A program made the position numbers and the translations under genes. Below the pieces are notes generated by a model. That model was given only the letters and a program-made list of their open reading frames with translations, searched no databases and had not been told where the DNA came from. A stretch of DNA of 23,416 bases from a virus, in IMG/VR virus record IMGVR_UViG_3300036768_000204, positions 1 through 23,416 of that record. One strand, given 5' to 3'. Below, in pieces: positions 8,411 through 17,147 of the stretch; the first letter of the stretch is position 1, and every line of letters starts with the position of its first letter.

Positions 8411-8486
8411 TGGTTGCGGGGGTGGGATTCGAACCCACGGCCTGACGGTTATGAGCCGTCCGCTCTTACCACTGAGCTACCCCGCG
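8411..8486 (-). tRNA. tRNA-Met (CAT) with initiator-like C1-A72 mismatch
   Basis: 76-nt cloverleaf with encoded CCA. Stems: acceptor CGCGGGG/CCCCGCA, D arm GCTC/GAGC, anticodon stem GACGG/CCGTC with loop CTCATAA (CAT at 8453-8451), variable AGGCC, T arm GTGGG/CCCAC with TTCGAAT. Bases 1 and 72 are C and A and do not pair, and the acceptor is identical to that of bacterial initiator tRNA. The D stem has C11-G24, as in elongators, and only two of the three initiator G-C pairs of the anticodon stem remain. It could also be read as an Ile2 tRNA if the C34 is lysidinylated. The stop codon of the upstream membrane gene falls on bases 8-10. Confidence 0.95.
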
Positions 8487-10006: not shown

Positions 10007-10984
10007 GTGTCACACGATCTGGACTTCACTGCTGGCCGACCGGCCATCGCATTCGCCGGTGCCGCACCGTGGCACCGGTTCGGGGCGCAGATTGATTCCG
10101 ATTCGCCAATCGAAGTCTGGCGCGACAAGGCCGGACTCGCTTGGTCGGCGCTCAGTTCTGAGGTCGCTTACGGGCCTGTAAGCGGCGGCAACATGAGGGT
10201 CGTACCGAACCGGGTGGCGCTCTACCGGAGCGACACTGGCGGCTTCCTCTCCATCGTTTCGGACGACTACAAGGTCGTCCAGCCCCACCAGATTCTGCAG
10301 TTCATGCGGGACATGGTCCACCGCGCCGGGTTCCGCATGGAGGTCGCCGGGGCCATGCTCGGTGGCCGCAAGATTTGGGCGCTCGCCCGAGTTAACGATG
10401 GAGCGCCAGTTATCGGGCATGATATCGTGCGCCCGTATATCCTCGCCGCCACGTCGTACGACGGCACGATGGCGTCGACGTTCAGGTTCACTTCTGTGCG
10501 GGTCGTGTGCAACAACACGCTCCGCATGGCGGTGTCGGAGGCGTCGAAAACTGGCGGCGCAGTCGTCGACTGCGTCAAGGTCAACCACTACGAGCACCTA
10601 GATATCGACGAGGTGCGCCGCAAGCTCGGCATCGTGCACGACGCGTGGGATCGGTTCCTAATCAACGCGCGCCTGCTTGCAGAGTCCAAGGTTGACCGGT
10701 CGTTCGCCAAGGACTTCCTCGCCAAGATTCTGCCGCACCCGAACAACAAGCCCATCGAGGAGACGCGGTCGTTCAAGAAGATCCTCGCCCTCTTCGACGG
10801 TGATGAGCCGATGGCCACGTTGCCTGAGGCGAAAGGCACCGCGTGGGGTCTGCTTAACTCCGTCACTTGGTACGTCGACCACGTCATGGGTCGGAACGAT
10901 ACGCGCCTCGACTCCGCATGGTTCGGCAGGGGTGACGAGATCAAGTCGCGCGCCGCCGATGCTCTTGTTGAGGCGGTTTCCTGA
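10007..10984 (+). CDS. DUF932 family protein (phage/plasmid-like, TIGR03299 type)
   Basis: 325 residues with a GTG start preceded by AAGGGGGG. The N-terminus APWHRFGAQIDS is the family signature (PWHG-G), followed by the YKVVQP motif, a Gly-rich loop (AGAMLGGRKIWALARV), and the TSYDGTMASTFRFTSVRVVCNNTLRMA block, all typical of DUF932. The family occurs on phages and plasmids and its biochemical role is not settled; it often sits in early or accessory regions with anti-restriction or replication genes. Length and motif order look intact. Confidence 0.88.
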   Translation: MSHDLDFTAGRPAIAFAGAAPWHRFGAQIDSDSPIEVWRDKAGLAWSALSSEVAYGPVSGGNMRVVPNRVALYRSDTGGFLSIVSDDYKVVQPHQILQFMRDMVHRAGFRMEVAGAMLGGRKIWALARVNDGAPVIGHDIVRPYILAATSYDGTMASTFRFTSVRVVCNNTLRMAVSEASKTGGAVVDCVKVNHYEHLDIDEVRRKLGIVHDAWDRFLINARLLAESKVDRSFAKDFLAKILPHPNNKPIEETRSFKKILALFDGDEPMATLPEAKGTAWGLLNSVTWYVDHVMGRNDTRLDSAWFGRGDEIKSRAADALVEAVS

Positions 10985-14627: not shown

Positions 14628-15939
14628 CGTCCCTCCTGCTACGACGCTTCGGAAGTTCGCCTTGAAGTTGCGCGAACTTCGTCAGGTTTCCAATGTACAT
14701 GAGAGGTATTGAGCACAACCCGCCTTGACGGTTCTTCTCGATGAGAAGCTCCCTGATTCCTTTCCACTCCGGGTCGTCGTTATACCGCTCCTCAGCGTAC
14801 AGCATCATCACGATGTCTGCATCCTGCTCGATGGCTCCAGAGTCACGGAGGTCGGAGAGTGTCGGCCTCTTGTTGTTACGTTCTTCGCACCTGCGGCTAA
14901 GTTGCGACAGTGCTACGACCGCAACGTCAAGCTCCTTCGCAATCGCCTTCAACCCTCGGCTGATCTCCTCGATCTCTGCGTTCCTGTTCTCGCGGTTGCC
15001 GACCATCAGTTGGAGGTAGTCCACGATCAGAAGATCGAGCCCTGCTCTCCTCTTGTGCGCCCTCGCCTTCGTCTTGACGTCGAAGATCGACAGTCCGCTC
15101 TGGTCGTCGACGTAGAACTTCAGTTGCCCGCAGAAGGCTGACGCGTCCACAAGGCGCGACCAGTACTCGTCGTTCTGGTCTGGCGACATGATCCAGTCAA
15201 GCGGGATGCTGCCGATCTGGGCCAGCGCCCTGTCGCCGACCTCTCGGCAACTCATCTCCATCGAAAGCATCATGACCGAGTGTTCGCGTGCAGCGTACAT
15301 CCCGATGGTCTGGGCGAACGCGGTCTTGCCGACCGAAGGTCTGGCAGCAACGATGACAAGGTTTCCTCGACGGAGGCCACCACAGAGGGCGCGGTCTACT
15401 GATGCGATTCCGGTACGGATGACTGACTCGCGCCCTTCAGACCTGCCGGAGACAGTCTTGACCGACTCGGTTGCGATGTCGCCGATGTGCCTAGCAACAC
15501 GGCGAGCCCTCCTGCTCGTAACCGACTCGATCTCGGACTGTGCAGTGTCGAGCTTCTCGTCGGTAGGTAGGGCAGACGTCGCAACCTCGATGATCCTTGA
15601 ACCTGCTGCTACGAGACCACGTTCAAGAGCCTTCGACCTGACGACCTCTGCATACCGGGCAACACCAGCAGAACTGGGTGTAGACGAAACAAGGTCGTTC
15701 AGGTACTGCATCTCGACATCGTGACCAGTCTCCCTGAGTCTTTCGAAGACTGACACGATGTCTGTTGGTTTGGAGTTCTCGTAAAGCCAGATGATGGCAG
15801 AGTAAATCTGACGGTGGATACCAACGGAGAAGTGTTCAACAGAAACATCTTCTACCCTGTCGATACATTCACCATCAAGCATCAAAGAACCAAGTAGTGC
15901 CTGTTCAGCCTCAACAGACCTTGTAGCATCAGATAACAT
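14614..15939 (-). CDS. dnaB: Replicative DNA helicase (DnaB family)
   Basis: 441 residues, full length for the family. The N-terminal domain (SVEAEQALLGSLML..., 8-115) is the primase/loader contact region. The RecA-like domain shows Walker A (ARPSVGKTA, 199-207), the MMLSMEMS segment, Walker B (LLIVDYLQLM, 303-312), VALSQLSR and DLRDSGAIEQDADIV. It unwinds DNA at the phage fork. GGGAG lies 6 bases before ATG 15939. Upstream is a long structured leader with a GGGCGC/GCGCCC hairpin immediately before the ribosome site, so expression may be regulated at the RNA level. No primase or loader gene is recognised here, so those may come from the host. Confidence 0.96.
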   Translation of the reverse strand: MLSDATRSVEAEQALLGSLMLDGECIDRVEDVSVEHFSVGIHRQIYSAIIWLYENSKPTDIVSVFERLRETGHDVEMQYLNDLVSSTPSSAGVARYAEVVRSKALERGLVAAGSRIIEVATSALPTDEKLDTAQSEIESVTSRRARRVARHIGDIATESVKTVSGRSEGRESVIRTGIASVDRALCGGLRRGNLVIVAARPSVGKTAFAQTIGMYAAREHSVMMLSMEMSCREVGDRALAQIGSIPLDWIMSPDQNDEYWSRLVDASAFCGQLKFYVDDQSGLSIFDVKTKARAHKRRAGLDLLIVDYLQLMVGNRENRNAEIEEISRGLKAIAKELDVAVVALSQLSRRCEERNNKRPTLSDLRDSGAIEQDADIVMMLYAEERYNDDPEWKGIRELLIEKNRQGGLCSIPLMYIGNLTKFAQLQGELPKRRSRRDDEYF

Positions 15940-15955
15940 GAAAATCTCCCTAACC

Positions 15956-16330
15956 GGGCGCGGTTGCGCCCTCCCATGTGGCTACGTTGTCCCCATAACG
16001 GGGATCGCAGGACAGCCCCCCCTACCCCCCAACGGAAAGTTGAGAGTAGGAGAGGGGATCGCCTTTGTAGAACCGTGTATCGGCGCACGCAACGCTCGTA
16101 CGCTCCCCGGCCAGCACGGTATACAGCCTAGCCCGCAGTCGTATGGGAGTTGCACCCCGCTGCGAATTGTTTAACGACCGTAGCGCTGAGTCGGTGTTCT
16201 GCTCCGAGCGGCCCATGCAGGCCCACTTCTGACGCGCGGAGTGCGCCACACACTTTCCCCAGAGTGTGAAGGCGTGGTCGGTTGCTACGTTGCGTAGCCG
16301 GGGCGGCTAGGGGGAACCCCACCGACCACG
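15956..16330 (-). ncRNA. Structured leader or ncRNA upstream of dnaB
   Basis: About 375 nt between the leftward promoter and dnaB that fold on the minus strand. Helices (plus-strand positions): 16273-16282/16321-16330 (10 bp); inner 16284-16289/16293-16298; 16249-16254/16263-16268; 16136-16142/16174-16180; 16066-16069 and 16072-16077 with 16115-16120 and 16122-16125; nested 16083-16089/16097-16103; 16016-16033/16039-16055 (17 bp, one bulge); 15991-15994/16000-16003; 15956-15961/15966-15971. Six pairs are G-U on the minus strand and would be A-C mismatches on the plus strand, so the minus strand is the folded RNA. The first helix begins right at the predicted transcript start. No known RNA class was recognised. 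Confidence 0.65.
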
Positions 16331-16338
16331 TGGAGTGA

Positions 16339-16365
16339 AGCATACCACAAAATTCTCGCTGTCAA
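16339..16365 (-). promoter_or_regulatory. Leftward early promoter (leader RNA and dnaB operon)
   Basis: -35 TTGACA (16365-16360, consensus) and -10 TATGCT (16344-16339) with a 15-base spacer, shorter than ideal. The predicted start, near 16332, coincides with the beginning of the first leader helix. The surrounding 16340-16440 segment is AT-rich compared with the genes. Confidence 0.6.
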
Positions 16366-16411
16366 TACCAAGAATGCGGTAGTTGTATTTACGCAACAGA
16401 CACGAAATCTA

Positions 16412-16440
16412 TTGTCACCTGTCAACGGGCGTGCTATTCT
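16412..16440 (+). promoter_or_regulatory. Rightward early promoter with phased TGTCA repeats
   Basis: -35 TTGTCA (16412-16417) and -10 TATTCT (16435-16440) are 17 bases apart. TGTCA at 16413 and at 16420 form a direct repeat with 7-base period over the -35, probably an operator. It drives ERF and the genes after it, divergent from the dnaB promoter. Confidence 0.75.
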
Positions 16441-16465
16441 CCGTCCAACACGTAGTAGTCTTGTG

Positions 16466-16485
16466 CCGCCACCGCTCTGTGGCGG
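16466..16485 (+). promoter_or_regulatory. Leader hairpin upstream of ERF
   Basis: Perfect 6-bp stem CCGCCA/TGGCGG with an 8-base loop, about 20 nt after the predicted start and 27 nt before the ERF ATG. No T run follows. It may be an antitermination, stability or attenuation element, comparable in place to the leader hairpin at 8986-9006. Confidence 0.45.
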
Positions 16486-16511
16486 ATGGGTTCTAAAACG
16501 AAGGGGGCAAG

Positions 16512-17147
16512 ATGTCAGGTGTCATCAAAGCGGTAGCTGCGATCATCGGTGAACTCGCTGCGGAAGGCATCTCCAAGCAACGCAGGAACGCGCAGCAGGG
16601 GTACATGTTCCGTGGCATCGACGACGTGCTGAATGCGCTGTCGTCTCTGTATGCGAAGTACAAGGTGGTCGTCGTGCCGTCGTACTCTAACCGTGTAATC
16701 ACGGAGAAGGCTGCCAAGAATGGCGGCGTCATCTTCTCCGTCGTAGTGGAAGGGAAGTACCGTATCATCCACGAGGACGGCAGCGAGATAGTCGCTGGCC
16801 CGTTTATCGGGGAGGCGATGGACTCCGCCGACAAGGCGACAAACAAAGCCATGTCTGCGGCGTACAAGTACTTCGCTATCCAGACGTTCGCAATCCCGAC
16901 TGAGGGCGACAACGACGCTGACGCGCACACGCCAGCGGTCGTCGCGTCTCCGAAGCAGGTTGATGAGTCCGCACTGTCGGACACCATCGAAGGCGTCACG
17001 ACTGGCGACGAGTGGGAGTCGGCAAAGTCGTACGTCTTCTCCGCATGCAAGGACGCTGGTGACCGCGAACTGTGGGCACGTATGCGGCAGAAGCTAGCCG
17101 ACAAGGCGAGAGAGATCGGGCACACTCCACGGGCAAAGGTGCAGTAG
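16512..17147 (+). CDS. erf: ERF-family single-strand annealing protein
   Basis: 211 residues. Anneals complementary single strands and, with the exonuclease two genes downstream, promotes recombination and genome circularisation. ERF features: N-terminal helix region, KQRRNAQQGYMFRGIDDVLNALSSLYAKYKVVVVP, the FSVVVEGKYRIIHEDGSEI strands, and GEAMDSADKATNKAMSAAYKYFAIQTFAIP (about 97-128), which is the family hallmark. The C-terminal 70 residues are acidic and helical, as in P22 Erf. AAGGGGGC lies just before ATG 16512, the first gene of the rightward early operon. The first codons contain a TGTCAggTGTCA repeat. Confidence 0.93.
   Translation: MSGVIKAVAAIIGELAAEGISKQRRNAQQGYMFRGIDDVLNALSSLYAKYKVVVVPSYSNRVITEKAAKNGGVIFSVVVEGKYRIIHEDGSEIVAGPFIGEAMDSADKATNKAMSAAYKYFAIQTFAIPTEGDNDADAHTPAVVASPKQVDESALSDTIEGVTTGDEWESAKSYVFSACKDAGDRELWARMRQKLADKAREIGHTPRAKVQ

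Follow-up and report, generated by a model that had tools for sequence, protein, structure and literature searches.

What occupies the 375 nt that separate the replicative helicase gene dnaB from a promoter-like site in the viral DNA analyzed here, and what might it do? The window, by which we mean the whole stretch of 23,416 nt (IMG/VR record IMGVR_UViG_3300036768_000204), contains a non-coding gap at 16330-15956 of the minus strand. The gap is located where genes diverge, with dnaB to the left and ERF, a small gene, and a RecE-like exonuclease (phrog_434) to the right. A preliminary description had proposed that it encodes a long structured RNA, transcribed leftward, and its coordinates and the gene calls that leave it non-coding were confirmed. 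It is virtually certain that positions 16330-15956 (minus strand) belong to a family of structured phage RNAs without an Rfam match, with a core consisting of a stem (P2) that carries a T-loop-like hairpin, an H-type pseudoknot (P3/PK) whose third loop contains hairpin P4, and a hairpin rich in G (P6). The features of the locus are as follows, listed in the direction of the RNA.

16512-17147, plus strand: divergent gene for an ERF-type single-strand annealing protein (PF04404, E 2.9e-17)
16339-16365, minus strand: promoter-like site, TATGCT preceded by TGG and 15 nt from TTGACA; extended -10 kept in contigs L005 and L004
16273-16330, minus strand: P0, a 10-bp outer helix (16330-16321 with 16282-16273) around small hairpins, in the dnaB lineage; z -3.68 for 16260-16335
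16191-16240, minus strand: P1 domain, a UCCG/CGGA helix around a GGGCC-UGCAU-GGGCC hairpin, then AGAACACCGA; by-eye comparison
16134-16164, minus strand: P2 stem CGCAG/CUGCG, with the T-loop-like and nearly invariant hairpin GGGGUGCAACUCCC as its cap, followed by AUACGA; fixed-offset test and covariance model R1
16109-16133, minus strand: P3, GGCUAG/CUGGCC (GUCUAG/CUGGAC in L004); joint fit and covariation
16115-16120, minus strand: 5' strand of PK, ACCGUG, within the P3 loop; joint fit and covariation
16083-16103, minus strand: P4 hairpin, GCGUACG/CGUGCGC, with a purine run (16108-16104) before it; joint fit and covariation
16072-16077, minus strand: 3' strand of PK, CACGGU, which pairs with 16120-16115 as a pseudoknot; joint fit and covariation
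16016-16055, minus strand: P6 hairpin, with a pyrimidine-rich strand at 16055-16042 and the conserved GGGGGUAGGGGGGG at 16029-16016; P6 pairing tests
15956-15971, minus strand: H8, a hairpin before the dnaB ribosome site; one G-C to A-U compensatory change in L004
14614-15939, minus strand: dnaB replicative helicase gene, downstream of the RNA (PF03796, E 9.8e-80; PF00772, E 1.6e-24; phrog_19)

Two of these elements had been pointed out before and are present, namely the hairpin that precedes the dnaB ribosome site (15971-15956) and the outer helix (16330-16321 with 16282-16273). P0 was observed in the dnaB lineage only, and because its strands are invariant in the three sequences there, covariation provides no evidence for it. 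The pseudoknot formed by the P3 loop (16120-16115 with 16077-16072) is a key element that was missing from the helices first described. The long structured RNA upstream of dnaB exists as proposed, whereas its conserved core (16164-16016) is shorter than the full 375 nt and dnaB is one of several contexts in which it occurs. The leftward promoter stands in part: the extended -10 (TGN-TATGCT) is kept in all three dnaB-lineage sequences, but the site is weaker than had been implied, with a spacing of 15 nt, and it is absent from a consensus promoter scan, which requires 16-18 nt. The sole promoter-like site listed by that scan for 15850-16560 lies at 16412-16440, rightward, outside the RNA and facing away from it. 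Elsewhere in the window, a phage tRNA-Met(CAT) is encoded at 8411-8486 of the minus strand; L012 and L013 contain one each.

Besides the window, 15 IMG/VR contigs carry the RNA, giving 14 distinct sequences in all, and there is one diverged relative. Searching with the window DnaB identified four contigs: L002 is identical to the window over 1.2 kb around the RNA, L003 and L005 are 93.5% identical to it (and alike to each other over the stretch compared), and L004 is 86.5% identical, with P3 changed from GGCUAG/CUGGCC to GUCUAG/CUGGAC. A 19-mer conserved in this dnaB lineage, GGGGTGCAACTCCCATACG, was present in eight stretches in viral_contigs, four of them new (L011, L015, L016, and L017), and these have other gene settings and the same downstream GGG(U)UAGGGGG element. 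Wider patterns added L019 and then L037-L042 as members. The last scan, with GGGGTGCAANTCCCAT, returned 35 stretches, comprising 15 members, the diverged member (L058), and 19 that were rejected (L018, L020, and 17 of L043-L060). The nearly invariant hairpin GGGGUGCAANUCCCAU and short G-rich runs aside, the member sequences differ from one another. No member lacking GGGGTGCAA-TCCCAT was returned by a pattern freeing two stem pairs or by one freeing the loop bases, so variation in the hairpin, as far as these patterns reach, is confined to one loop base; the pattern freeing two stem pairs gave 15 new stretches, all rejected since the core and the downstream G-run are missing. The conservation of TAGGGG is partly selected, because TAGGGG belonged to some of the search patterns and to one script filter; other scans, including those with the 19-mer and with GGGGTGCAANTCCCAT, did not require it.

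Membership was scored with the covariance model R1, which is limited to P2 and its hairpin because automatic alignment misplaced P3. Members score from 46 to 86 bits, all of them except L058 being in, or identical to, the training set; the window, which is in that set, scores 78.8 bits and L058, which is outside it, 49.8 bits. Other carriers of the 16-mer reach 25.2 bits or less among the roughly 15 of 19 rejected stretches that were scored. L045, L049, L053, L056, and L060 were not in this scoring; four of the five resemble copies of scored sequences, as does L060 by its listed letters. The rejected stretch with the highest score, L020, is borderline (E 0.008), and most of its score comes from the shared 16-mer. 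The motif occurs once per record in 12 of 12 records, with no second copy above 15 bits by R1 in the member contigs searched. In L068, the contig of L058, the diverged member is located at 10042-10122 of the minus strand, with the P2 hairpin and UUAGGGG present and no clear P4. Among the non-members by R1, L043 (584-599) and L046 (2231-2246) are almost alike around GGGGTGCAAGTCCCAT, in a stretch that seems to precede a reading frame. At 4525-4540 of L047, a 16-mer of the same type sits between tRNA-like sequences and is perhaps a T-arm-like remnant.

Searches of other collections gave no further members. A 17-mer matched one stretch in bacterial genomes (L036), in which little beyond the 17-mer matches (R1 20.6 bits), and it was rejected; a gapped pattern matched no stretch in bacterial genomes, and its relaxed form none in 398 genomes of one phylum. 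DNA similarity searches of named phage records identified no credible relative of the window region or of L019, nor of L016 (22 records, the best 10 of which are all at E ~10), L017 (one match at E 5), or L040 (eight records at E 3 to 10). The plasmid collection had no match with a 51-nt query from the window core. Rfam 15 gave one match across the whole window, a tRNA elsewhere, together with four sub-threshold matches (E 1.9 or worse) for the 521-nt region around the RNA, and no match in 10 of 10 further loci; the preliminary description had likewise recognized no riboswitch, tmRNA, RNase P, or group I core.

All 14 sequences fit one fold, identified by eye and then by script, that consists of stem P2, P3, the P3-loop pseudoknot, and hairpin P4. 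Its 5' part runs from the P2 5' strand through the hairpin GGGG-UGCAANU-CCC and a linker, mostly AUA(A)CG(A/U), to the P2 3' strand. The P3 5' strand usually follows after 0-1 nt, and then come the loop, the PK 5' strand, and the P3 3' strand; a purine run (mostly GRGG) precedes P4, the PK 3' strand, a variable P5 region, and P6. From P2 to P6, this pseudoknotted core measures ~130-170 nt across the family. By eye, P5-region hairpins closed by a GAAA, GUAA, or GCAA loop occur in L011, L015, L017, L037, L040, and L042, and a block resembling the P1 domain was seen in eight of 12 sequences, a comparison made by eye only. Upstream of the core of L017, at ~2090-2190 of the minus strand, three apparent hairpins are flanked by the arms of a long inverted repeat, AATCACGCTGGGTCTGCG with its complement, again by eye; this arrangement is like that of P0, with no sequence likeness to P0 of the window.

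The strands of the pseudoknot show wide sequence freedom, for example ACCGUG/CACGGU in the window, ACUCACA/UGUGAGU in L037, AAUCUCA/UGAGAUU in L038, AAGCGC/GCGCUU in L019, UCCUAU/AUAGGA in L042, and CCAAGA/UCUUGG in L016. Within P2, P3, PK, and P4, each helix position (counted from the outer end of its helix) that is present in at least five of 12 sequences has at least three standard pair types; full pairing in this covariation table is by construction, because the helices were chosen for complementarity. Compared with 1500 dinucleotide shuffles per sequence, the joint P3-PK-P4 score had p < 0.05 in 12 of the 14 sequences, and Fisher p = 8e-11 over 11 groups; L017 (p 0.17) and L038 (p 0.13) are not significant alone. 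The same sequences supplied the limits of this joint fit, which were relaxed on one occasion, a shorter P4 limit not having fitted L038, and without narrow limits the script picked other pairings in L017 and L041. Counts over 12 sequences omit L005, whose core equals that of the window, and L011, whose core equals that of L015; the Fisher test omits the window as well, with L004 representing the dnaB lineage. When P2 was placed at one fixed offset with zero freedom, 46 of 60 positions were paired, compared with 18-29 in slid versions, but 38 at +1, which is the P2 register of members with a one-base insertion. In all 12 sequences tested, P6 forms a hairpin that is 12 to 16 positions long and has three mismatches or fewer (without a shuffle control). 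RNAalifold, run on the automatic alignment, recovered a single 3-bp helix besides P2 and its hairpin, and nothing further. The preliminary description had named homologues lacking compensatory changes, or conservation with a codon pattern, as findings that would count against it; the homologues have compensatory changes in P2, P3, PK, and P4, and what is conserved across them is pairing and not codons. These observations support its proposal of a functional, structured minus-strand RNA of a new phage class.

Six base pairs in three helices had been cited as G-U in the minus-strand RNA and A-C in the plus strand, a bias that was taken as the mark of a minus-strand RNA. The bases at all six positions are as described, and five of the pairs fall in conserved helices (four in P6 and one in P4), whereas the helix with the sixth, 16137/16179, conflicts with the conserved P2, where 16137 pairs with 16161. 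The bias itself is weak on one sequence, and folding energies in the window are nearly equal on the two strands (z -1.87 for minus, -1.76 for plus), but it holds for P6 across the family. With P6 registered by Watson-Crick pairs alone, the 12 sequences contain 34 G-U pairs versus two A-C, an asymmetry that favours the minus strand and may partly reflect sequence constraint, because the G strand of P6 is itself conserved. P3-PK-P4 has no clear strand preference (7 to 5). Because a joint fit of P3-P4-PK with A-C replacing G-U scored higher in five of 12 sequences, the evidence on strand comes from P6.

The genes next to the RNA mostly act in replication and are of unrelated kinds: DnaB, SF2 helicases, and orphan C-terminal halves of O-type proteins. 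The RNA precedes dnaB in the window, L005, and L004 (a DnaB-like gene occurs in three of 14 records), and it precedes an SF2 helicase gene in L015 (PF04851, E 4.6e-23) and, by eye, in L017 and L040. Matches to the C-terminal part only of O-type proteins were found for a 145-aa gene in L064, the contig of L037 (positions 182-267 of 315 in phrog_16167), an 87-aa gene in L067, the contig of L042 (positions 177-249 of 383 in phrog_270), and, further downstream of the RNA, a 117-aa gene in L063, the contig of L016 (positions 217-315 of 346 in phrog_678). In O-type initiators, the N-terminal half binds DNA and the C-terminal half acts as a loader; as predicted proteins, the three beside the RNA are too short for a DNA-binding half. 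The four cultured phages that were viewed, picked from 26 and 34 matching records, each carry relatives of the orphan O domains toward the end of a single gene of 801-882 bp. A Phage_rep_O N-terminal domain was found in none of the 14 records, which are fragments, and this absence is weak evidence because even the longer O-like gene of L058 escapes the model. Elsewhere, the next operon with known families is a terminase operon, in L038 (phrog_2) and in L061, the contig of L019 (phrog_4102 and phrog_38), and the L011 contig ends before its next gene. Neighbours named methylase, HNH, and Cro were assigned by eye from translations. From P6 to the next gene, distances range from ~20 nt (L016) to ~600 nt (L061).

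Some of these loci also contain DNA that resembles replication origins. The three strict DnaA boxes of the L038 contig are all downstream of the core (+193, +204, and +219), the sole strict box in the 39.8 kb of L066 (the contig of L039, G006) is at +207, and the sole strict box of L063 (G002, 38.8 kb) lies on the opposite strand, at +363. Three of the five box-bearing contigs therefore have a strict box 0-400 nt downstream of the RNA, for which random box placement gives P = 6e-5, an interval that was picked after the data were seen; the values are 5e-4 for +-400 nt and 0.007 for +-1 kb. G003 (three boxes) and G008 (one) have no strict box downstream of the RNA, and nine of 14 records, some of them partial, have no strict box. 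In L061, iteron-like direct repeats (TGTAGAGGTT..., three perfect and two partial, at 27-30 nt spacing) occupy 10103-10240, starting 161 nt downstream of the RNA with no DnaA box nearby; they are perhaps an initiator-binding array. The cumulative GC-skew minimum, in 200-nt steps, is less than 900 nt from the RNA in five of nine contigs (42 nt in the window, 58 nt in the 61-kb G003, 344 nt in G001, and 864 nt in G008 and G013) and not near it in G002, G004, G006, and G007. Support from GC skew is confounded, because genes diverge near the RNA in all five positive contigs, which could alone give a minimum. The analyses of DnaA boxes and GC skew both postdate the idea of an origin.

A replication gene or origin-like DNA is close to the RNA in 12 of the 13 loci with downstream sequence, the exception being L041. 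Because of this, and because the gene families differ and three O-type proteins are too short, we infer, tentatively and with somewhat less than even confidence, that the RNA specifies a replication origin. The single motif in each of the 12 records also counts in its favour. Several loci speak against this role: two reading frames separate the RNA from the orphan O domain in L016, an O-like gene of greater length (280 aa) follows the diverged member L058, phrog_678 matches marginally in G001 (30 positions, E 0.006), and in L041 and L039 the RNA precedes genes without a family.

The mechanism that we propose is drawn by analogy with ColE1 RNA II and mycobacteriophage RNA origins, and each of its steps is conjectural. 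The RNA would be transcribed into the adjacent replication region, from its own promoter in divergent arrangements and within an early operon elsewhere. The folded RNA, with its G-rich 3' hairpin, might stay at the DNA or re-invade it as an R-loop that opens the DNA, and would probably give a primer for leading-strand synthesis; the R-loop or primer step taken by itself is rather unlikely. Helicase loading would follow, of DnaB in the window and, in relatives, through either an orphan C-terminal O loader or an SF2 helicase, with the RNA replacing the job of the DNA-binding N-terminal half of an O-type initiator. A wider reading, doubtful at present, is that such an RNA is widespread and substitutes for the half of initiators that recognizes the origin. 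Unrelated phages would place it before their own helicase or loader (DnaB, SF2 helicase, or O cut to its loader domain), and its use would go beyond a plasmid-like prophage state to the main replication module.

The main rival to an origin role is a leader RNA through which transcription of the following operon is controlled, by put-like antitermination or as an attenuator or riboswitch, its fold being read by RNA polymerase or a ligand. This would explain many of the same RNA positions, since at most loci a run of genes on the same strand has the RNA inside it or as its 5' leader, and put RNAs likewise follow early promoters, according to the accessible text of PMC9378689. Yet the genes behind the RNA, different in family, mostly share replication, the gap from P6 to the next gene varies (~20 nt in L016 to ~600 nt in L061), and L061 has its next gene on the opposite strand. 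In favour of a leader, a T-run hairpin separates the RNA from the terminase genes of L038 (by eye); against it, no terminator-like site follows the RNA in the window, or P6 on the RNA strand in the scanned parts of L015 and L040, and L061 has only a weak one, ~280 nt past P6. Where a replication gene is absent, DnaA boxes or iteron-like repeats follow the RNA, and each record has one motif compared with the two put sites that the same text gives for HK022. Overall, we consider control as a leader to be unlikely.

Less probable is a free-standing, trans-acting RNA that is encoded in the replication region by happenstance and serves a phage or host protein as decoy or scaffold. The T-loop-like hairpin and the G-rich runs are conserved in sequence and the rest by pairing only, as in protein-binding RNAs, and the location varies among loci; such an RNA is at odds with the lack of a common terminator or 3' end after P6 in the loci scanned and with the replication genes or origin-like DNA nearby in 12 of 13 loci, which make it improbable. 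Phages carry ribozymes and introns, and the compact pseudoknotted fold is of a kind that a self-cleaving or splicing ribozyme, or an intron remnant, might have; this is very improbable given that neither the window nor 10 further loci have an Rfam ribozyme, group I, or group II match and that the gene calls show no single gene split by the RNA. Chance, or a structure at the DNA level such as a single-strand DNA hairpin origin, is hardly credible in view of the covariation and shuffle tests, the P6 counts (34 G-U versus two A-C), and the R1 scores of at least 46 bits for members (most of them the training set) versus 25 bits or less for other 16-mer carriers, even with both strands folding about equally well by energy alone and A-C scoring higher in five of 12 joint fits.

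How the RNA compares with known systems can be considered for its parts and for the whole. The sequence GGGUGCAACUCCC, which resembles a tRNA T-arm, is identical to the Rfam tymovirus tRNA-like consensus at 13 positions (E 8.7; score 11.6 versus a gathering cut-off of 40), and for this reason the hairpin loop may fold as a T-loop; the remainder of the tRNA-like model is absent from the present RNA. Judged by titles and the opening lines of abstracts, none of the accessible papers found on structured phage RNAs, origins, R-loops, put, or RNA-based replication describes this RNA. GOLLD, ROOL, and OLE have Rfam models, and the present RNA differs from them in being smaller, tied to replication genes, and without an Rfam model match. 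It is like them in being an orphan structured RNA, theirs being of bacteria and phages (large ornate RNAs; PMC12286853, in the text available). With put of HK022 it shares the character of a cis-acting structured RNA near early phage promoters; put is ~70 nt, with two stem-loops and two copies per genome (PMC9378689, accessible text), whereas the present RNA has a pseudoknotted core of ~130-170 nt and one motif per record (12 of 12). A structured RNA family with a covarying pseudoknot and no Rfam match, common to unrelated environmental phages, is in itself a clear target for studies of structure and function.

RNA-based origins are already known; as an RNA family, the present one had no relative among the libraries searched. 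In cluster A mycobacteriophages (Alma, LadyBird, and RedRock), RNA-based prophage origins have been described in which, by the available text, the RNA-expressing region is necessary and sufficient for replication (PMC7157519). The likeness lies in a phage-encoded non-coding RNA, deleted stretches of ~400-500 bp, and phages without a RepA initiator (PMC7157519, same text). They differ in that R1 gives at best 8.4 bits for Alma (L081) and 7.4 for RedRock (L082), compared with at least 46 in members, and that GTGCAANT and TAGGGG are both absent from the Alma and RedRock stretches. The mycobacteriophage RNAs also adjoin parABS and serve the prophage (PMC7157519, in the portion available), while the present RNA, by the gene families assigned here, adjoins ERF, helicase, O, or terminase genes. 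If the origin role, which we hold only tentatively, is right, the present RNA would be like these origins in kind and not homologous to the two tested, Alma and RedRock. ColE1 RNA II, which starts 550 bp upstream of its origin and is restrained by the antisense RNA I, would be alike in idea, as a structured transcript that opens an origin, primes synthesis, and lets a helicase load without an initiator (PMC5043065, accessible text). Should an origin role prove true, the RNA would explain orphan loader domains without a DNA-binding half, offer a compact system for testing how RNA opens an origin, and stand beside the known examples as a second, unrelated RNA-based route for starting phage DNA replication.
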